From Patescibacteria group bacterium (lineage in GTDB: Bacteria > Patescibacteriota > Kazan-3B-28 > UBA10110), in the NCBI GenBank assembly GCA_003524745.1, contig DQGN01000010.1:1743-12600 (forward strand): a stretch of 10,858 bases of DNA, written 5' to 3'. The stretch's first letter is position 1. Each line of letters opens with the position of its first letter. Position numbers and translations under genes: made by a program. Under the pieces are notes generated by a model that was given only the letters and a program-made list of their open reading frames with translations, had not been told where the DNA came from and did no database searches. Shown here one piece after another: positions 1-6,710 of this stretch.

Positions 1-1086
1 TGCGATATTTCTGGAGTTTTCAAGAAATATGGCCAGGCTTCCCTTGGCGTGATCTTTGGCTTGGCGCAGCTCTTTTTCAGTAATGCCGTGTTCTTTAATT
101 TTCCGTAATTCGTCTATAACGACTTTAATCGCTTCGTGGGTCTTGTCCTTATTTACCCCGGCCCGGACGGTGAATATTCCGGTGTCGGTAGACATATCGG
201 CATCGCTCCCCACGTAATATGCCAGGCCTCTTTTTTCCCTAACCTCCTGGAATAACCGCGAGCTCATGCCACCCCCCAATATCATTGCCAAAAGACTTTC
301 GGCATATCTCTTTTCATCGAACATATGATATGCCCGCAAACCAATGTAAAAATGGGATTGGTTCGTATCTTTCCATGAAATCAATATTTCCGGTTTTTCC
401 TGGGCTTCGATTACCGCCGGCTTGCCAACGGGTTTGCTTTCTCTCAAATGCTCAAATGTTTTTATGACTTTTTCTTTCGCCTCCTCGATGTTTATATTGC
501 CGGCAACAGCAATAACGGTATTTCCGGATACATAGTGGGTATTAAAATAATTGACAAAATCTTGCCTTTTCAGATTTATTATCGTTTCTTTATTTCCCGC
601 TATTTCCCATCCGGCCGGCTGGTCGCCGTAAATCAGTTCTTCCAACAGTTCAGCGACATGAGAAGTGGGGTCATCATGCCTCATGTTTATTTCCTCCAAA
701 ATAACCCCCTTCTCCATCGTAATATCTCTCTCGTCTAATTTTGAATTAAGATAAATGTCGGACACGACATCCAGTATCAAATCGAATTTGTCGGAGCTGG
801 AGCGGGCGTAATATGCTGTGTTTTCTTTGCTGGTAAAAGCGTTGTAGTCGGCTCCGATGGATTCCAACTCTTGAGAAATATCCAGCGGTCCGGGCCGGCG
901 CGACGTTCCTTTGAACATCATGTGTTCTAGAAAATGGGATATGCCGCTTATTTCTTTGGTTTCATATTTGGAACCGGTTCCGGCGATTACCATGACAGTC
1001 ACGGTTCTAGTTCCTTCCATCGGCACCAAAACGAGCCTTAGGCCCGAAGACAAAGTTTCAAATGTGTATTTAGAATCCATGTTCAT
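1..1086 (-). CDS. M16 family zinc metallopeptidase (partial, C-terminus outside window)
   Basis: Reading the minus strand from the ATG at 1086 gives 362 codons with no stop before the window edge. The inverted zinc motif HFLEH lies at residues 51-55: His51 and His55 are ligands and Glu54 is the catalytic base. Glu132, 77 residues after His55 inside VILEEINM, is the expected third ligand. A second typical block, EVREKRGLAYYVG, lies in the inactive-like second half. Family members run to about 410-430 residues, so roughly 50-70 are missing. There is no obvious signal peptide, so a cytosolic peptide or protein-processing enzyme (mitochondrial processing peptidase/PqqL type) is likely; the substrate is unknown. 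The start at 1086 is preferred over the ATG at 1080 because a TATAAT ends 6 bases upstream. By hand count 14 of 30 isoleucines use ATA, unlike the core genes further right. Confidence 0.93.
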   Translation of the reverse strand, partial: MNMDSKYTFETLSSGLRLVLVPMEGTRTVTVMVIAGTGSKYETKEISGISHFLEHMMFKGTSRRPGPLDISQELESIGADYNAFTSKENTAYYARSSSDKFDLILDVVSDIYLNSKLDERDITMEKGVILEEINMRHDDPTSHVAELLEELIYGDQPAGWEIAGNKETIINLKRQDFVNYFNTHYVSGNTVIAVAGNINIEEAKEKVIKTFEHLRESKPVGKPAVIEAQEKPEILISWKDTNQSHFYIGLRAYHMFDEKRYAESLLAMILGGGMSSRLFQEVREKRGLAYYVGSDADMSTDTGIFTVRAGVNKDKTHEAIKVVIDELRKIKEHGITEKELRQAKDHAKGSLAIFLENSRNIA

Positions 1087-1120: not shown

Positions 1121-1121
1121 G

Positions 1122-1193
1122 TGCCGGTGAATGGAGTTGAACCATTTTCTGAGCGTTATGAGTGCTCCGTTCTAACCGTTGAACTACACCGGC
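1122..1193 (-). tRNA. tRNA with anticodon CAT (elongator Met or Ile2)
   Basis: The 72-nt cloverleaf has acceptor GCCGGTG/CACCGGC with discriminator A, a GTTC/GAAC D stem, an anticodon loop CTCATAA (anticodon CAT at 1160-1158), a four-base variable loop, and a T arm AATGG-TTCAACT-CCATT. The pyrimidine11-purine24 pair marks it as elongator type. Position 31-39 is an A-C mismatch in the anticodon stem. CCA is not encoded, since the discriminator is followed by C-A-T. The sequence alone does not decide between elongator Met and the lysidine-modified Ile2 tRNA. Confidence 0.9.
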
Positions 1194-1210
1194 CGCCAAA
1201 ATACCATATT

Positions 1211-1238
1211 ATTTTACACTTTTTCTTGATTTCTTCAA
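1211..1238 (-). promoter_or_regulatory. Putative promoter of the CAT tRNA at 1193-1122
   Basis: On the minus strand, TTGAAG (1238-1233) and TAAAAT (1216-1211) are separated by 16 bases. This puts transcription start near 1204, about 11 bases before the tRNA 5' end. It overlaps the divergent promoter of the initiator tRNA. Confidence 0.5.
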
Positions 1239-1254
1239 ATTGAAGGAGTATGAT
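1226..1254 (+). promoter_or_regulatory. Putative promoter of the initiator tRNA gene
   Basis: TTGATT (1226-1231) and TATGAT (1249-1254) are separated by exactly 17 bases. The predicted start near 1261 gives a tRNA 5' leader of about 12 nt. Confidence 0.6.
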
Positions 1255-1272
1255 ATTAAGGTAATTTAATAT

Positions 1273-1344
1273 CCCGGGGTGGAGCAGTGGCAGCTCGCCA
1301 GGCTCATAACCTGGAGGTTGGAGGTTCGAATCCTCCCCCCGCTA
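1273..1344 (+). tRNA. Initiator tRNA-fMet (anticodon CAT)
   Basis: The cloverleaf has D stem GAGC/GCTC, anticodon arm CCAGG-CTCATAA-CCTGG and T arm GGAGG-TTCGAAT-CCTCC. The A11-T24 pair, the TGGAGCAG run and an unpaired 1-72 position (C1, T72) are initiator hallmarks. Two things are unusual. Position 2-71 is C-C, so the top two acceptor pairs are both open. The usual three G-C pairs at the base of the anticodon stem (29-31) are reduced to A-T, G-C, G-C. The 3' end reads A-C-C-G, so full CCA is not encoded. A promoter lies upstream and a terminator downstream, suggesting a single-gene transcript. Confidence 0.93.
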
Positions 1345-1348
1345 CCGA

Positions 1349-1379
1349 GCGAAGCCACTCTTTTTGAGATAAGCTTTGC
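1349..1379 (+). repeat. Small hairpin after the initiator tRNA
   Basis: GCGAAGC (1349-1355) can pair with GCTTTGC (1373-1379) with one G-U pair, and an inner CTC/GAG encloses five T. It lies in the 3' trailer between the tRNA and its terminator, so it may affect 3' processing. A GCGAAGC core also occurs in the hairpin near 2057. Confidence 0.35.
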
Positions 1380-1384
1380 CTATC

Positions 1385-1418
1385 AGCCCCACCAGTATAA
1401 CTGTGTGGGGCTTTCTTT
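1385..1418 (+). terminator. Rho-independent terminator of the initiator tRNA
   Basis: AGCCCCAC (1385-1392) pairs perfectly with GTGGGGCT (1405-1412). An inner CAG/CTG with one bulged T closes a TATAA loop, and TTCTTT follows. In the other orientation the stem is equally strong but no U-run follows, so termination of the minus-strand tRNA is less certain. Confidence 0.75.
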
Positions 1419-1449
1419 AAATGGAAATTACTTTGGAGTAAGTTCTTAC

Positions 1450-1524
1450 TGGTGGGCTCGGCAGGGATCGAACCTACGACCAACCCCTTATGAGGGGGCT
1501 GCTCTACCGCTGAGCTACGAGCCC
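1450..1524 (-). tRNA. tRNA with anticodon CAT (candidate tRNA-Ile2, or elongator Met)
   Basis: This is a 75-nt gene including an encoded CCA (1452-1450). The acceptor GGGCTCG/CGAGCCC is fully paired with discriminator A. The D stem is GCTC/GAGC, the anticodon arm GCCCC-CTCATAA-GGGGT (anticodon at 1492-1490), and the T arm GTAGG-TTCGATC-CCTGC. The fully paired C-rich anticodon stem with a CTCATAA loop is why I lean weakly towards the lysidine-modified AUA-reading tRNA-Ile2. It lies 42 bases after the ftsB-like gene on the same strand and could be processed from a shared transcript. Confidence 0.93.
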
Positions 1525-1566
1525 TCCGCTATGCTCTGGGTCAAAGACCCGTTCCTTTAAATTATA

Positions 1567-2004
1567 CTATCCCAAGATGTAATCCCACCATTTTTGTGGG
1601 TTAGACAGAATGGGTTTGTTGTTTGGAGTTTCATCGGTCTCCGTGGTGCCGGGATCAATATACAAAAAATTGTCTTGAGGAATGGCAACCACAGTCTCTC
1701 CGGTTTTTTTATAGCCTAACTTGCGCCGGGCTTCCTTTTCTCGAAATGACTCGGTTTTTAAGTAAGCAATCAAGTTTTTGTATTGGATGTTTTGTTGTCC
1801 TAATTGGGTAATTTCATCCTTTAAGCGCACGATTTCTTGATTGATTTGCAGATTTTGCCAGAGAGCTTCGCCAGTCGCGAAAAACATATACCCAAATATT
1901 GCCCAAGCTACCAAAAAACTGATGCGAAAACGCAACTTCTTTTGGCTAATAAACCGCGCAATCGGATTGATTTTCCATGGGATCTTCATAAGCAAACCCA
2001 TCAT
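1567..2004 (-). CDS. FtsB/DivIC-family septum formation initiator protein
   Basis: From the ATG at 2004 the product is 145 residues. It has a short basic cytoplasmic N-terminus, one membrane helix at about 28-45, a coiled coil at about 48-83, and the conserved block ESFREKEARRKLGYKKTGET at 86-104 followed by VVAIP. The C-terminus ends NPQKWWDYILG. This order is that of FtsB/DivIC bitopic proteins, which bridge FtsL and FtsQ/DivIB in the divisome outside the membrane. FtsB and DivIC cannot be separated here, so no symbol is given. The reading frame opens further upstream to a TTG at 2028 (153 residues), and an ATG at 1989 (140 residues) is also possible. The ATG at 2004 is favoured because a -10-like TACCAT lies 6 bases before it. 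The gene lies between two CAT tRNA genes on the same strand. Confidence 0.88.
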   Translation of the reverse strand: MMGLLMKIPWKINPIARFISQKKLRFRISFLVAWAIFGYMFFATGEALWQNLQINQEIVRLKDEITQLGQQNIQYKNLIAYLKTESFREKEARRKLGYKKTGETVVAIPQDNFLYIDPGTTETDETPNNKPILSNPQKWWDYILG

Positions 2005-2010
2005 CCCATA

Positions 2011-2016
2011 ATGGTA
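2011..2016 (-). promoter_or_regulatory. Possible leaderless -10 element of the ftsB-like gene
   Basis: On the minus strand TACCAT (2016-2011; 4/6 to TATAAT, including the first two and last bases) ends 6 bases before the ATG at 2004. This is the same geometry as three other genes in the window. No convincing -35 is visible, so this is weak, and readthrough from the tRNA upstream is an alternative. Confidence 0.3.
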
Positions 2017-2051
2017 TAACCCAATCAATTTATATTGAAGGTTGGCGCAAG

Positions 2052-2083
2052 CCAGGCGAAGCTACGAATGTAGCGAAACCTGG
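2052..2083 (-). repeat. Inverted repeat overlapping the 3' CCA of the tRNA
   Basis: CCAGG (2083-2079 on the minus strand) pairs with CCTGG (2056-2052), and GCTAC (2074-2070) with GTAGC (2065-2061). They are separated by a 4+4 internal loop and closed by a 4-base loop. The first three bases of the outer stem are the tRNA's own CCA end, so the trailer could sequester it before processing. No T-run follows, so it is not a classical terminator. Confidence 0.45.
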
Positions 2084-2155
2084 TGCCAGGGATGAGATTC
2101 GAACTCACGACCAATGGCTTATGAATCCACTGCTCTACCACTGAGCTACCCTGGC
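2081..2155 (-). tRNA. tRNA with anticodon CAT (candidate elongator tRNA-Met)
   Basis: This is a 75-nt gene with CCA encoded (2083-2081). The acceptor GCCAGGG/CCCTGGC is fully paired with discriminator A. The D stem is GCTC/GAGC, the anticodon arm GTGGA-TTCATAA-GCCAT (anticodon at 2123-2121), and the T arm GTGAG-TTCGAAT-CTCAT. Pair 31-39 is an A-G mismatch. It shares the D-arm and variable-loop (TGGTC) design of the tRNA at 1524-1450, suggesting related origin. It is divergent from tilS across a 162-base gap. Elongator Met is my preferred reading, but Ile2 is not excluded. Confidence 0.93.
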
Positions 2156-2171
2156 ATAACCCACTGCATTT

Positions 2172-2200
2172 AGATTAGGCAAAAAAATCGACTTTGTAAA
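2172..2200 (-). promoter_or_regulatory. Putative promoter of the CAT tRNA at 2155-2081
   Basis: On the minus strand TTTACA (2200-2195; 5/6 to consensus) is separated by 17 bases from TAATCT (2177-2172; the three most conserved -10 positions match). Start would be near 2165, about 10 bases before the tRNA. The -35 touches the inner edge of the 14-bp arm at 2200-2213. Confidence 0.5.
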
Positions 2201-2297
2201 CCCCGTTAGAAGCAAAAAATAAGCATGGCAACCGCATTATTTGATGATATACTAACCCATGTTTTAATTAAGATTATTTTCAAGCTTCTAACGGGGT
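2200..2297. repeat. 98-bp imperfect palindrome between divergent tRNA and tilS promoters
   Basis: ACCCCGTTAGAAGC (2200-2213) is the exact reverse complement of GCTTCTAACGGGGT (2284-2297). After a small 2x3 internal loop the stem continues with AAAATAA (2216-2222) against TTATTTT (2274-2280), and CATGG (2224-2228) can pair with CCATG (2257-2261). The arms face outward towards the two divergent promoters, so the same 14-mer stands upstream of both transcription units. It could be a pair of operator sites, a cruciform or structured RNA, or a small MITE-like insertion. I see no clear target-site duplication. Confidence 0.8.
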
Positions 2298-2305
2298 AAA
2301 TCACC

Positions 2306-2311
2306 TATAAT
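2306..2311 (+). promoter_or_regulatory. Putative leaderless -10 element of tilS
   Basis: A perfect TATAAT ends 6 bases before the tilS ATG at 2318, so transcription would start on the A of the start codon. No recognisable -35 exists at 16-18 bases; that position is occupied by the inverted-repeat arm (2284-2297). This suggests that the arm may bind an activator or another factor. Confidence 0.6.
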
Positions 2312-2317
2312 AGAGAT

Positions 2318-3313
2318 ATGAGATTAATAGACAAGTTAATTAATCAGATTGATAATAAATATCTTCCTCCTCAAGGAACTGATTTGGTAGTGGCTGTATC
2401 GGGCGGGGTAGATTCGGTGGCATTGGTGCATTTGCTGCTGAGGTTGGCCAACCAATATGATTGGGATTTAACGGTAGCTCATTTCGATCATCAATTAAGG
2501 AAAACATCCCAGAGAGATGCTGAATTTGTGCAAAAATTAGCCAAGAATTTAGGGTTGGATTATGTGTCTGCTAAAACTAATGTATCTGTTTTAGCCAAGC
2601 GAGAAAGATTGACTATCGAAGAGGCCGCCCGCAAAGCCCGCTATGATTTTTTACAGCAAGTGGCGCGTCGGCGCAGAGCATTGATTGTGACCGGGCATAC
2701 CGCCGATGATCAATTAGAGACTGTCGTGATGAATTGGTTGCGCGGGGGCGGAGTCCGGGCATTAGCCGGTATGCGCGATCTAGACAATAATATTTGGCGG
2801 CCGCTCCTATCCATCACCAAAACACAAATCAAAGAGTTTGTCCGGCAATATCAGCTGACTTATAGGGAAGACGAGACTAACCAGCAGACCAAATTTAAGC
2901 GCAATTTGATTCGACATAAAGTTATGCCGACCCTGCGATTAGTTAATCCATCGCTGGAACAGGTCTTATTGCGCAATGCCAAAGTGATGGCAAGTTTGGC
3001 AGATTTTGTCGGCCAAGAAACGGCTAGGTTATACAAAAAAATGGCTAAAAGCCAGAAGGATGCAATTTGGTTGGACCTGAAAAAGTTAAATCAATTACCG
3101 GAATTTTTGCGTAACGAAGTTATCTTATTTACTATCCGCCAATTGCAAGGACATCAGCAAGATATCAAGAAAATCCATTTGGATGAGGTGCAAAAAATTA
3201 TTAATAGCGCTGAGGGTAAGGTGTGGAAGCAGCTACCTGGTAAATTGTTTGTGAGCAACAGGTATGGTAAAATTGGTTTTAGCCGTTATCGGCCTAAATT
3301 TCTTAATCGATGA
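2318..3313 (+). CDS. tilS: tRNA(Ile)-lysidine synthase TilS
   Basis: The protein has 331 residues. It contains the N-type ATP-pyrophosphatase P-loop SGGVDS at 28-33, AHFDHQLR at 54-61, the GHTADDQLET block at 126-135 followed by a glycine-rich loop (GGG, 143-145), and a conserved RNLIRH at 195-200. TilS uses ATP and lysine to convert C34 of tRNA-Ile(CAU) to lysidine, changing its reading from AUG to AUA and its charging from Met to Ile. It acts in the cytosol. The length is nearer the short TilS of Aquifex than the 430-residue E. coli type, so the C-terminal tRNA-binding region is reduced. The stop overlaps the ftsH start as ATGA. The gene lies divergent from a cluster of CAT tRNAs, one of which should be its substrate. 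No Shine-Dalgarno is seen. Confidence 0.95.
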   Translation: MRLIDKLINQIDNKYLPPQGTDLVVAVSGGVDSVALVHLLLRLANQYDWDLTVAHFDHQLRKTSQRDAEFVQKLAKNLGLDYVSAKTNVSVLAKRERLTIEEAARKARYDFLQQVARRRRALIVTGHTADDQLETVVMNWLRGGGVRALAGMRDLDNNIWRPLLSITKTQIKEFVRQYQLTYREDETNQQTKFKRNLIRHKVMPTLRLVNPSLEQVLLRNAKVMASLADFVGQETARLYKKMAKSQKDAIWLDLKKLNQLPEFLRNEVILFTIRQLQGHQQDIKKIHLDEVQKIINSAEGKVWKQLPGKLFVSNRYGKIGFSRYRPKFLNR

Positions 3314-5124
3314 GACTAGCTGGCAGAACAATTGGGTATATTATTATCGCCTTATTGGTGGGAAGTTTGCTCTACAATCTATTTGGTTTTAGCCCCACCG
3401 AAATCCAAGAGATACCCTTAAGCCAGGTGGTCGAAGATGCCTCGGCAGGGAGAATAGAAAAGATTACGGTCAAGGGTGATAATCTTAGTATTATCGATCG
3501 CAATGGCACGGAGTATCGGTCGCGCAAAGAACCCAATACCTCATTATTCGATGCCGGCATTAATCCGCAAAAAGTAACGGTAGAAGTTAAAGATGTTTCT
3601 ACGAGCGAATTGTGGTTGGGGCTTTTATCCTCGCTGATTCCTTTCTTGTTAATAGTCGGGTTTTTATGGTTTATGTTGCGCCAAGCCCAAGGTGCTAACA
3701 ACCAAGCCTTATCATTTGGACGCAGCCGGGCAAGGTTAGTGCCATTACAAGGTAAAAATCGGATTACCTTCAAAGATGTAGCGGGAGCATACGAGGCCAA
3801 GCAAGAACTGATGGAAGAAGTAGAATTCTTGAAATATCCTAGCAAATTCTTAAGCATGGGTGCCCGCATTCCGAAGGGCGTTTTATTAATGGGTCCTCCC
3901 GGCACCGGCAAAACACTCCTCGCTAAAGCTGTCGCTGGGGAAGCGGGGGTACCCTTCTTTCATATTTCTGGTTCCGAATTTGTAGAGATGTTTGTGGGAG
4001 TAGGGGCATCTCGGGTCAGGGACTTATTCGCTAAAGCTAAACGCAATGCCCCAGCTATTGTTTTTATTGATGAAATCGATGCCGTGGGTCGTCAGCGCGG
4101 AGCTGGCCTTGGCGGATCGCATGATGAACGGGAACAAACCCTGAATCAAATTTTAGTGGAGATGGATGGTTTTGAAACCGAAACCAATGTTATTGTTATC
4201 GCAGCGACTAACCGTCCCGATGTTTTAGATCCGGCACTGTTGCGTCCGGGGCGTTTTGATCGCCGGGTGATGTTAGACCGGCCAGACATCAAAGATCGCC
4301 GGGCTATTTTAGATGTGCATGCTAAAAACAAGCCCTTGGACGATGACATCAACTTAGACAAGATTGCCAGCCAAACTCCCGGGTTCACCGGAGCGGATTT
4401 ACAAAATTTAATTAACGAAGCAGCAATTCTGGCAGCGCGTCATAATCGCAAGCGCATCAATCAAATTGATCTTAACGAAGCTTTAGAAAAGGTAGTGCTG
4501 GGTCCCGAGCGCCGCAATAAACTTTTAACCGAACAAGAAAAAAAAGTAACGGCTTACCACGAAGCGGGCCATGCCGTTGTTTCTCATATAGTGCCTCATG
4601 GTGAGCCGGTACATAAAATATCGGTCATCTCGCGGGGGATGGCGTTGGGTTACACCTGGAATATGCCATTAGCGGATAGATATCTACATTCCAAAGCCCA
4701 ATTTATGGATGAAATAGCGGTAATGATGGGAGGGCGAGTCGCCGAGCAATTAGTCTTTGCCGAAATTACCACCGGAGCTGCCAATGATTTGCAACGAGCC
4801 ACCGAACTGGCTCGCCAAATGGTGATTAAATTTGGCATGAGCGAAAAATTGGGGCCGATAGTATTCGGCAGCAAGGACGAGTTGGTGTTTTTGGGACGCG
4901 AGATTCATGAACAGAAAAATTACAGCGAGAAAATCGCTGCCACTATTGATGAAGAAGTAGCGAAAATCATTAAAACAGCCGAAGATCAGGCCACCAATGT
5001 GTTGAATAAGCATAAACGAGAATTAGAAGCGGTGGCAGAGCGGTTAATCAAGGAAGAAATAATCGAGAGAGAAGATTTCGAAGCATTTTTCCCGGATATT
5101 CCCAGCAAAAAAAGTTCTCAATAA
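3310..5124 (+). CDS. ftsH: ATP-dependent zinc metalloprotease FtsH
   Basis: The 604-residue product is a full-length FtsH. It has membrane helices at about 7-25 and 101-123 flanking a short external domain. The AAA+ module has Walker A GPPGTGKT at 195-202, pore residues FVG at 228-230, Walker B VFIDE at 251-255, and a second region of homology with arginine fingers R312 and R315. The M41 protease domain has HEAGH at 417-421 and the third zinc ligand D493. FtsH hexamers extract and degrade membrane and short-lived cytosolic proteins. A helical region at about 535-590 precedes the polar tail. The start overlaps tilS by four bases, so translation is probably coupled. The tilS-ftsH order is conserved in many bacteria, often with hpt between them; hpt is absent here. 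Confidence 0.98.
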
Positions 5125-5126
5125 AC

Positions 5127-6710
5127 ATGATCCAAAACCTTATAAAACGGAAATCCAGCGTGTGGGAAGCAACCGTAGTGCTGGCGGTGGCTTTTTTGGT
5201 CAGCCGGCTGTTTGGGTTGTTTAGAGACAGAACATTAGCTGCTCACTTTGGCGCGGGCGACGTGCTGGATGCTTATTTTGCCGCTTTCAAAATTCCGGAT
5301 TTCATTTTTAGCCTCTTATTATTAGGGGCGCTGTCGTCGGCCTTCATTCCCATTTTTACTGAATATATTCAAAAGAACGGGAAAGACGAAGCCTGGAGTT
5401 TTGTGAATACTTTGGTCAATCTTGGCATTATTATATTGACGGTAGTGCTGCTCCTGATCGCCATATTTGCTCCCCAGTTATCGCATTTAGTCGCTCCAGG
5501 GTTTGATGATGCGAAGCGCCAAGTGACGGTAAATTTGATGCGGGTTATGTTATTTTCCCCGCTCTTTTTTGGCTTAAGTAATTTAGCCGGGGGAATTCTT
5601 AATTCGTTCCGTAATTTTATTGCTTATGCGATTGCTCCCATTCTGTATAATATAGGCATTATTTCCGGTGTCATTTGGTTGGTGCCGAGATTCGGTTATA
5701 TGGGTTTAGCCTACGGGGTAGTATTGGGAGCCTTTCTACATATGCTGATTCAAATCCCGAGCGTGTTTAGTTTGGGTTATAAGTACCAAATGCATCTGAA
5801 TACGAAACATCCCGGCTTAAGAAAATTAGCCTTTTTAATGTTGCCGCGGACTTTGGGGATTGCGGCCCAACAAGTATCCGTGTTAGTTAACACCATCATT
5901 GCCTCAACCTTGGCGGTAGGGAGTATCGCGGTGTTGAATTTGGGAGATAACCTGTATAGCTTGCCGGTCAGCATATTCGGCATTTCATTCGCGGTGGCGG
6001 TCTTCCCGGCGCTGACCGAAAAATATACCTTGCAGAAGTTAGATGAGTTTAAAGAAGATTTTGTGCGCACATTCCGCCAAATTATGTTCTTTATTTTGCC
6101 GACAATGATGCTGTATTGGCTGCTGCGGGCCCAAATTGTTCGACTGGTCTTAGGGGCGGGGCAATTTGGCTGGGAGGATACGCGGTTTACTGTCTCAGTT
6201 TTGGCTTTCTTGGTCTTTGGTATGTGGGCGCAAGCCATCGTTCCGCTTCTGGCCCGATCATTCTATGCTTTACAAGACACTAAAACCCCATTTTTCACCA
6301 GTATACTATCTTTAATCGTTAATATTATCTCGGCGCTGCTCCTTGTCAGTTACTTCCAAGTGGTGGGCTTGGCCATGGCAATTTCGATAGGGGCGATTAT
6401 TAATGCCGTGGTGCTGTTTATTATTTTACATTTCCGTTTAGAGGGGTTGCCTCTGCGTAAATTAGGCAAATTAATTTTACAAATTGGGTTAGCGAGCTTG
6501 ACTATGGGGTTATTCGGTTATGGAGCATTGCAGGCCATGAGTTGGATTATCAACACCCATACTTTTGCCGGACTATTAATTCAAACCATTGTCGCGATCG
6601 GCGTGGCTGTCTTAACTTATTTAGTAGTGGCACGCAAGTTTGGTTTACCGGAACTCAAAATGGTCATGGCAATATTAAAAAGAGTCCGGTTAATTAAATC
6701 AGCCTCATGA
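5127..6710 (+). CDS. murJ: Lipid II flippase MurJ (MviN family)
   Basis: The protein has 527 residues, with hydrophobic segments throughout, consistent with the 14-helix MurJ/MOP-exporter fold. The N-terminal signature is clear: SRLFGLFRD at 26-34, DAYFAAFKIPD at 49-59 and GALSSAFIPIFTEY at 68-80. MurJ flips lipid-linked peptidoglycan precursors across the inner membrane. Arg27, Arg33 and Asp49 align by motif with E. coli Arg18, Arg24 and Asp39. The E. coli Arg52 and Glu57 positions are hydrophobic here (F62, L67), which I believe is common outside Proteobacteria. The gene begins two bases after the ftsH stop without a Shine-Dalgarno, and its stop overlaps the next gene as ATGA. It implies that the organism makes a peptidoglycan wall, consistent with the ftsB-like gene upstream. 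Confidence 0.95.
   Translation: MIQNLIKRKSSVWEATVVLAVAFLVSRLFGLFRDRTLAAHFGAGDVLDAYFAAFKIPDFIFSLLLLGALSSAFIPIFTEYIQKNGKDEAWSFVNTLVNLGIIILTVVLLLIAIFAPQLSHLVAPGFDDAKRQVTVNLMRVMLFSPLFFGLSNLAGGILNSFRNFIAYAIAPILYNIGIISGVIWLVPRFGYMGLAYGVVLGAFLHMLIQIPSVFSLGYKYQMHLNTKHPGLRKLAFLMLPRTLGIAAQQVSVLVNTIIASTLAVGSIAVLNLGDNLYSLPVSIFGISFAVAVFPALTEKYTLQKLDEFKEDFVRTFRQIMFFILPTMMLYWLLRAQIVRLVLGAGQFGWEDTRFTVSVLAFLVFGMWAQAIVPLLARSFYALQDTKTPFFTSILSLIVNIISALLLVSYFQVVGLAMAISIGAIINAVVLFIILHFRLEGLPLRKLGKLILQIGLASLTMGLFGYGALQAMSWIINTHTFAGLLIQTIVAIGVAVLTYLVVARKFGLPELKMVMAILKRVRLIKSAS

Follow-up and report, generated by a model that had tools for sequence, protein, structure and literature searches.

Why do four tRNA genes with one and the same anticodon stand together beside tilS, the gene of tRNA(Ile)-lysidine synthetase, and does the enzyme explain the grouping? 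In the window (the whole stretch of 10,858 nucleotides that was analysed, from a Patescibacteria bacterium of the lineage Kazan-3B-28), ARAGORN found four tRNAs, all with anticodon CAT and all within 1121-2155, which agrees with the four CAT genes in about 1 kb reported in the initial annotation; RNA families besides tRNA gave no match above the Rfam gathering score in the window. Our answer, which we hold at a probability of roughly two in three, is a joint one: a native Kazan decoding cluster, its upkeep by inertia and co-expression, and a fourth tRNA that is foreign or chimeric.

The native CAU set and its gene neighbourhood

The labels fMet, eMet and Ile2 used throughout are our own and come from sequence-derived profiles (leave-one-out 81/81); in the E. 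coli and phage annotations compared with the Ile2 and eMet labels, tRNA names were mixed. The initiator tRNA-fMet (1273-1346, plus strand, Rfam tRNA 57.1 bits) scored 100 as fMet, against 41 as eMet and 2 as Ile2. The tRNA-Ile2 (1450-1524, minus strand, 69.0 bits) scored 102 with its own profile and 35 and -17 with the other two, while the elongator tRNA-Met (2081-2155, minus strand, 69.7 bits) scored 83 as eMet, with 21 and 3 for the other classes. The Ile2 gene combines a CAU anticodon with an elongator body, falls among the Ile2-type genes of its relatives and is identical to that of locus L114 at 68/72 positions; the eMet gene groups with relatives' eMet (68/72 identical to that of L118) and carries an A31.G39 mismatch, which leaves an anticodon stem of 4 bp. 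That one of the four genes is an initiator and the other three are elongator-type, as proposed, is borne out by the tRNA features and by our profiles, and the native CAU set is the normal three, namely the initiator (1273), Ile2 (1450) and elongator Met (2081). The tRNA at 1450-1524 is predicted to be the TilS substrate and to read AUA.

The gene at 2318-3313 (plus strand, 331 aa) is identified as tilS by NCBIfam, Pfam and solved-structure matches: its product scores 200.8 bits against TIGR02432 (cut-off 93.6), has E 5.7e-55 against PF01171, and matches the structures 1wy5, 2e21 and 2e89 at E 4e-47, the closest being Aquifex TilS (1wy5). The N-terminal PP-loop domain with the SGGxDS motif is present, and S28, G29, G30, D32 and S33 are invariant in 35 aligned sequences; judged from these features, the product is TilS and is predicted to make lysidine on tRNA-Ile2. 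Versions of this tilS at 92-95% identity are present on other contigs. Between eMet and tilS lies a measured spacer of 162 bases (2156-2317) from which the two genes diverge, exactly as first described.

A DivIC/FtsB septum formation initiator gene (1567-2028, minus strand, PF04977 E 6e-13) sits between the Ile2 and eMet genes and shares their strand; divIC separates eMet from the other two tRNAs in all seven Kazan-order loci. On the other side, ftsH (3310-5124, plus strand) overlaps the end of tilS and adjoins it in 7/7 of these loci, and murJ, for the lipid II flippase (5127-6710, plus strand), comes after ftsH in 6/7, the contig of the seventh stopping inside ftsH. The native Kazan cluster would thus have fMet, Ile2, divIC and eMet on one side and tilS-ftsH-murJ running divergently on the other. 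From spacing and strands, eMet-divIC-Ile2 may form one transcript started in the 162-bp spacer shared with tilS, and such a shared spacer would keep the enzyme, its Ile2 substrate and the similar eMet in proportion.

The same spacer holds a short element (2200-2297) with perfect 14-nt inverted ends (ACCCCGTTAGAAGC/GCTTCTAACGGGGT). Its 11-nt end CCCCGTTAGAA has 42 copies in the Kazan-order genome G076 and 26 in G090. Like bacterial MITEs, these units are 96-135 bp long and dispersed, with inverted ends; unlike them, one such unit in G076 and G090 has an intact eMet gene within it and itself lies in a disrupted eMet gene.

Linkage of CAT tRNA genes to tilS in other genomes

The genomes compared are assemblies of unstated completeness. 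In the seven Kazan-order genomes with tilS, ARAGORN found 25 CAT tRNAs in the tilS regions, none of them more than 5 kb from the gene. A genome-wide search of these seven with a tight anticodon pattern (an earlier loose one gave mostly chance matches) returned 36 matches, of which 25 are those ARAGORN tRNAs, 7 yielded no tRNA when their loci were examined, and 4 have no locus. These last are one each in G026, G076, G146 and G044. The G044 and G076 matches are absent from the tRNA listing; leaving aside the unchecked matches in G026 and G146, no further CAT tRNA was confirmed genome-wide. In G062, a single contig, 3 of 50 tRNAs are CAT and all lie within 2 kb beside tilS, and in G044 all 4 CAT among 45 tRNAs are at the tilS locus. 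Two more Kazan-order assemblies gave no detected tilS: G104 has no CAT among 40 tRNAs (ARAGORN), and G119, with 42 tRNAs (Rfam), has one CAT pattern match at which ARAGORN finds no tRNA. Lack of both is expected if one locus holds all the CAT tRNAs and is absent from the assembly. A scan of genome contigs for further Kazan loci gave none titled Kazan among the loci listed (at least 80).

For Patescibacteria (CPR) as a whole, we took the best 60 of 98 tilS matches (loci L112-L171; the 38 weaker were left out), of which 7 are the Kazan-order loci. In the 53 other genomes, 47 of 131 CAT-like sites fall within 10 kb of tilS where 2.8 are expected from 20 kb over the rounded genome size; these sites are 26-letter rows only, with other lengths excluded by eye and a variable-loop rule then applied, and most are pattern calls without an ARAGORN check. 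The tRNAs within 1 kb of tilS are 25 CAT and 0 others in the 53 loci, and for the other bacteria they are 14 CAT and 2 others in 78 loci (the best 80 of 582 by TilS similarity, with two CPR loci among them set aside), the CAT ones spread over 13 of the 78; the binomial values for these counts ignore kinship among loci. The tRNA-tilS linkage is thereby shown to be far above chance in the Kazan order, in the further Patescibacteria sampled and in loci from six additional phyla, and the first impression that the grouping is non-random stands. The question whether tilS neighbours CAU tRNAs in relatives has a mixed answer: a CAT tRNA lies within 10 kb in 7/7 Kazan-order and 25/53 other Patescibacteria genomes, and is missing at that distance in 28/53, some on short contigs. 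No published description of tilS-CAU tRNA linkage was found in literature titles or abstract openings.

The cause of the linkage is less plain. The first idea was that the enzyme's need to choose among CAU tRNAs explains the grouping, and this is not supported, given the unlinked 28/53, the identity of the nearest tRNA and the genome G284, in which tilS is undetected. In G284 the order ftsH-fMet-eMet-divIC is retained, and therefore the Met-tRNA linkage does not need TilS. The tRNA nearest tilS is eMet, a non-substrate, in 21 of the 32 linked Patescibacteria loci; within 1 kb of tilS outside CPR, 13/14 CAT tRNAs are elongator Met and none is Ile2 by our labels. A purely inherited order, in which divIC-Met-tRNA-tilS-ftsH descends from an early bacterial ancestor and TilS and the tRNAs are functionally unconnected, would fit the nearest tRNA and G284, and we place it somewhat short of even odds. 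Further for it, the clostridial loci L002, L021 and L057 have tRNAs for Met and Glu at 4-6 kb from tilS, and linkage declines with distance from the query TilS (17/27 among the most similar, 8/26 among the least similar), so shared descent accounts for part of it. The gene order of Bacillus subtilis is divIC-tRNA-spoIIE-tilS-hprT-ftsH. Against inheritance alone, the 32 linked loci show 18 order and strand patterns (some differing only by an absent member), the linkage persisting though order and strands shift, and the nearest tRNA is Ile2 in 6/32.

A stronger functional claim would make the tilS locus a CAU-decoding island, in which selection holds the enzyme, its substrate and the two look-alikes as an inherited and expressed unit that predates the split of Patescibacteria from other phyla; we regard this as doubtful. 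In our joint reading, the old divIC-tRNA-tilS-ftsH neighbourhood would have been retained partly by inertia and partly through the joint inheritance and expression of tRNA and enzyme.

The fourth tRNA gene and the adjoining M16 gene

The fourth CAT tRNA (1121-1193, minus strand, Rfam tRNA 64.7 bits) has an A31.C39 mismatch and a 4-nt variable loop, and CCA is not encoded. Its profile score is 37.1 as eMet and -3.3 as Ile2, where the normal eMet of the window scores 83, and it is 90% identical over 68 nt to a sequence of G091 and 80% to one of G284. It appears, on these features, to be of an elongator-Met-like type of other Patescibacteria. A 4-bp anticodon stem occurs in 27.3% of bacterial eMet genes according to the part of Fakih et al. 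2026 (PMC13092985) drawn on here; the eMet and the fourth tRNA of the window resemble these genes, both being unpaired at 31-39, whereas tilS linkage is not mentioned in that part of the paper.

The suggestion that the extra gene is a second Ile2 does not survive the Ile2 profile and the closer matches obtained elsewhere in CPR. That it is a native second Ile2 or an unusual variant is very improbable: over 54 bases it is 85% identical to a mycobacteriophage tRNA whose annotation reads tRNA-Ile (anticodon GAT by ARAGORN), and odd extra CAT tRNAs occur 4-5 kb downstream of tilS in Kazan-order G044, G076 and G090, which makes a native extra tRNA possible in the lineage, but the fourth tRNA is without an Ile2 acceptor stem and, among the matches obtained, the closest are CAT tRNAs from further CPR genomes. 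We also considered and rejected an origin from a virus or plasmid, since of a 131-base query two phages match only 54 bases and seven plasmids only 38; an exact-pattern scan of IMG/VR for this tRNA gave no matches.

Its neighbour is an M16-family peptidase gene (1-1086, minus strand, 3' end beyond the window) whose closest listed proteins are one at 89% identity and then others at 58-65%. Kazan is absent from the named sources among the 120 M16 proteins listed, which are Yanofskybacteria, Paceibacterota, 'Patescibacteria' and 'bacterium'. Identity is 58% to the G077 protein and 39% to that of the Kazan-order single contig G062, where the gene is located elsewhere in the genome. In G077, a CAT tRNA of the same type stands 33 bases before the M16 gene, and the distance in the window is 35-41. 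FtsH, MurJ, DivIC and TilS all have their best matches in Kazan among the loci compared, and EamA was matched only in Kazan. The fourth tRNA and M16 would therefore be a block from another lineage, either an import or, with greater likelihood, the product of a chimeric join close to the initiator's 5' end; the favoured junction between foreign block and Kazan sequence is 1194-1275, reaching 1449 if the initiator is also foreign.

The initiator itself matches Kazan-order G146 in position and orientation, and is 65/72 identical to the G146 gene and equally to two other CPR genes; it has G9, where seven Kazan-order initiators have A9, and its own sequence thus leaves its Kazan origin unsettled. 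Positions 1 and 72 are unpaired (C1.U72), an initiator feature, and table 2 of PMC5143459 gives C.U at 1-72 for 626/4438 initiators. Base 2 is C, so that a C2.C71 mismatch confined to the window replaces the G2:C71 pair found in 21/21 other initiators compared. Formylation needs G2:C71 in the initiator tRNA. We read the mismatch as a probable sign of a sequence join and of no new initiator class.

The alternative is that the Kazan lineage truly gained the fourth tRNA and M16 horizontally, the tRNA acting as a second elongator Met or as a TilS substrate. Its fold is complete, the tRNA-M16 pair occurs together elsewhere (G077) and G+C across the window has no break at the join, all of which suit a true transfer; we nevertheless consider it unlikely, because C2.C71 stands at the junction in the window's sole initiator and would be damaging if real. 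The M16 protein cluster is listed on 38 contigs of up to 199,728 bases and the window's TilS on 2 of up to 23,566, which also speaks for a chimera, but this is a weak point, as the best match for divIC (99%) is likewise listed on one 780-base contig only. In the preferred reading, the fourth tRNA is outside the native set. It would have been attached together with M16 at about 1194-1275, either through horizontal transfer or, likelier, through chimeric assembly.

Relation to known systems and meaning

The locus resembles the known TilS/tRNA-Ile2 lysidine system in a TilS above the NCBIfam cut-off, a full Ile2-type gene and the three CAU classes, and differs in that enzyme, substrate tRNA and both look-alikes adjoin. 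In E. coli, metY-nusA-infB and tRNA-tufB are operons that combine a tRNA gene with genes for its handling proteins; the likeness is that a tRNA gene neighbours one whose product acts on tRNA, whereas the Kazan protein is an RNA-modifying enzyme, the arrangement is divergent and not co-directional, and the nearest tRNA is a non-substrate.

A surplus of tRNAs at a tRNA cluster can reflect an assembly join. Since neither of the two Kazan-order assemblies in which tilS went undetected showed a CAT tRNA, the locus suggests itself as a possible completeness check. If selection keeps the linkage, gene neighbourhood would become evidence for assigning CAU tRNAs, which the anticodon alone distinguishes poorly, and the balance of TilS against its substrate and a near-identical non-substrate would become testable.

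CAT tRNAs of the window and their classes

The 10,858-base window carries, in order, an M16 peptidase (- strand), four tRNA genes with anticodon CAT (CAU), DivIC (-), TilS (+), FtsH and MurJ, followed by an EamA transporter, two small unknown proteins, a methyltransferase and LepA. In a protein search, the TilS of Kazan GW2011_GWA1_44_22 is the second closest other TilS to that of the window (95% identical), which puts the source in or close to candidate division Kazan (Patescibacteria). Isoleucine codons in ten frames of the window are 52 AUA, 71 AUC and 136 AUU, so a tRNA able to read AUA is required.

Judged by their acceptor stems and their D and anticodon arms, the tRNAs are an initiator (fMet, start 1273), an Ile2 tRNA (predicted TilS substrate, start 1450), an elongator Met tRNA (eMet, start 2081) and an odd fourth tRNA (start 1121). 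With a home-made class profile (84 labelled genes, the window's own three kept out of training), the first three score 100, 102 and 83 bits in their own classes, and the odd one 37 bits as eMet. Leave-one-out was right in 81/81 cases, which, as the labels are author-assigned, reflects separation of the classes and not agreement with an outside classifier. Arms and profile thus bear out the initial annotation of one initiator and three elongator-type tRNAs, the gene at 1121 being eMet-like; its suggestion of a second Ile2 is disfavoured there, because the profile prefers eMet and the best relatives are elongator-like CAT tRNAs.

Linkage of tilS and CAT tRNAs

A tilS match is present in seven of the nine genomes of the Kazan order, and to the question of whether tilS neighbours CAU tRNAs in related genomes the answer is yes: in all seven, the CAT tRNAs detected by ARAGORN in the tilS regions (25 in total) lie within 5 kb of tilS. 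A tight anticodon/T-loop pattern applied to these whole genomes confirmed no further CAT tRNA, with one pattern-only match each in G026 and G146. The common map is fMet and Ile2, divIC, eMet, then tilS-ftsH in divergent orientation, with murJ and lepA after ftsH in 6/7 loci (the seventh contig stops in ftsH). Single-contig G062 has 50 tRNAs, of which three are CAT (27,018, 27,924 and 28,863; tilS at 29,155), while all four CAT tRNAs among the 45 of G044 are at the tilS locus. The two relatives with no match to tilS, G104 and G119, have 40 and 42 tRNAs; ARAGORN calls none of the 40 CAT, and does not call a tRNA at the single whole-genome pattern match of G119. The simplest reading is that the tilS/CAT tRNA locus is absent from both assemblies.

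At E 1e-3, 98 of 379 Patescibacteria genomes gave a match to the Kazan TilS. The 53 genomes outside the Kazan order among the 60 strongest matches have 131 CAT-like sites, 47 of them no farther than 10 kb from tilS (2.8 expected), so the proposed non-random grouping holds. Such sites number at least one in 25/53 genomes and include all sites in 11/53; a pattern search found a CAT-like site nowhere in the genome in 3/53. Linkage is commoner where TilS is nearer to that of the window (17/27 in the nearer half vs 8/26 in the farther). The 32 linked CPR loci show 18 order/strand arrangements, some differing just by an absent or remote member. Within 1 kb of tilS, these 53 loci hold 25 CAT tRNAs and no other tRNA, and 78 non-CPR loci (the best 80 of 582 by TilS similarity, minus two CPR) hold 14 CAT tRNAs in 13 loci and two others, with no CAT tRNA found within 1 kb in 65/78. 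All 14 are upstream of tilS on the same strand, in records from Omnitrophota, Latescibacterota, Atribacteria, Armatimonadetes, Gemmatimonadetes and Ignavibacteria; by author-assigned labels, 13 are elongator Met, one initiator and none Ile2. The titles and abstract openings listed by literature searches contained no description of the linkage, although subscription papers lay mostly outside the search and it may be in print elsewhere; six gene-context terms were absent from PMC12514573, and term look-ups also covered parts of PMC13092985, PMC5143459 and PMC8450103.

The initial annotation connected the grouping with the need of TilS to choose among CAU tRNAs, and as a reason for it this idea fares poorly. 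The tRNA nearest tilS in the 32 linked CPR loci is mostly eMet (21; Ile2 6, fMet 5), and in 28/53 other CPR genomes no CAT was found within 10 kb of tilS, some tilS contigs being short; the 65 non-CPR loci with none within 1 kb also count against it. Furthermore, G284 has the order ftsH-fMet-eMet-divIC with no tilS match genome-wide or in the 15.7 kb round the Met tRNAs; therefore, Met tRNAs can remain with divIC-ftsH without tilS. Its tRNA with anticodon TAT (L409:9890-9963, 3.6 kb from divIC) would, judging by the anticodon, read AUA as Ile(UAU).

Origin of the fourth tRNA and the M16 gene

Across the 379 genomes, the best relatives of the fourth tRNA are CAT tRNAs (G091, 90% over 68 nt; G284, 80%; G367, 79%); these belong to an elongator-like type in which 31-39 is mismatched. 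In G077, a tRNA of this type lies 33 bases ahead of an M16 gene whose product is 58% identical to the window M16; the window pair, on the same strand, is 35-41 bases apart, according to which start codon is taken. YfmF/YfmH-type models match the window M16 protein with scores below their cut-offs. Its protein search gave a top match of 89%, then 58-65%, with Yanofskybacteria and Paceibacterota among those named and no Kazan M16 among the 120 matches listed; the one M16 found in the pieces of G062 has 39% identity and lies well away from tilS. In the same loci comparison, DivIC, TilS, FtsH and MurJ have their closest counterparts in Kazan-order loci, the only ones that EamA matches; neither the methyltransferase nor LepA separates the lineages.

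In position and orientation the initiator corresponds to that of G146, and it has C2.C71 where 21/21 other initiators compared have G2:C71. As it is equally close (65/72) to G146 and two other CPR genes, its sequence may belong to either side of a join. A join at its 5' end (about 1194-1275) would account for both C2.C71 and the fourth tRNA/M16 block. We favour a chimera over transfer as its origin, because transfer would leave a damaged initiator and, as a weak point, because the M16 cluster is on 38 contigs listed (up to 199,728 bases) and TilS on 2 (up to 23,566). We put at roughly two in three the probability of the main reading as a whole, a conserved Kazan cluster of three CAU tRNAs with tilS, kept partly by inertia and partly by shared inheritance and expression, and joined to a fourth tRNA and M16 from another lineage, slightly lowered because of the ambiguous closeness of the initiator.

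The eMet-tilS region and proposed joint expression

The eMet beside tilS is nested in G076 (L112:8356-8599), G090 (L114:8110-8290) and G026 (L116:6638-6891), as a complete eMet gene within a second one broken in the anticodon loop. Inverted ends CCCCGTTAGAA/TTCTAACGGGG bound it in G076 and G090, and those of G026 have diverged. Over 35 and 41 bases, the two broken halves in G076 match the intact window eMet at 97% identity. A dispersed 96-135 bp element with CCCCGTTAGAA ends has a window copy at 2200-2297, between eMet and tilS; such ends number 42 in G076, 42 in G024, 26 in G090, 10 in G026, 5 in G044 and 0-2 in the remaining 33 of 38 genomes searched. In three Kazan-order genomes, four additional, unusual CAT tRNAs lie 4-5 kb downstream of tilS (L112:2783-2940, L113:12881-12953, L114:1991-2068), none encoding CCA and two with discriminator G73; that of L113 shares 80% identity with a Pseudomonas phage tRNA annotated as Met. 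In G077 (L412:8000-9120), an intron-like insert, at a guess of group I type, apparently splits the anticodon loop of an initiator-like tRNA; ARAGORN does not read across it.

In the window, TATAAT at 2306-2311, six bases ahead of the tilS ATG, is not among the promoters listed by a consensus scan. The eMet, divIC and Ile2 genes are consecutive on the - strand, 52 and 42 bases apart, and a 162-bp spacer separates eMet from the divergent tilS. This layout suggests that eMet-divIC-Ile2 would form a single transcript, which may be fired jointly with tilS.
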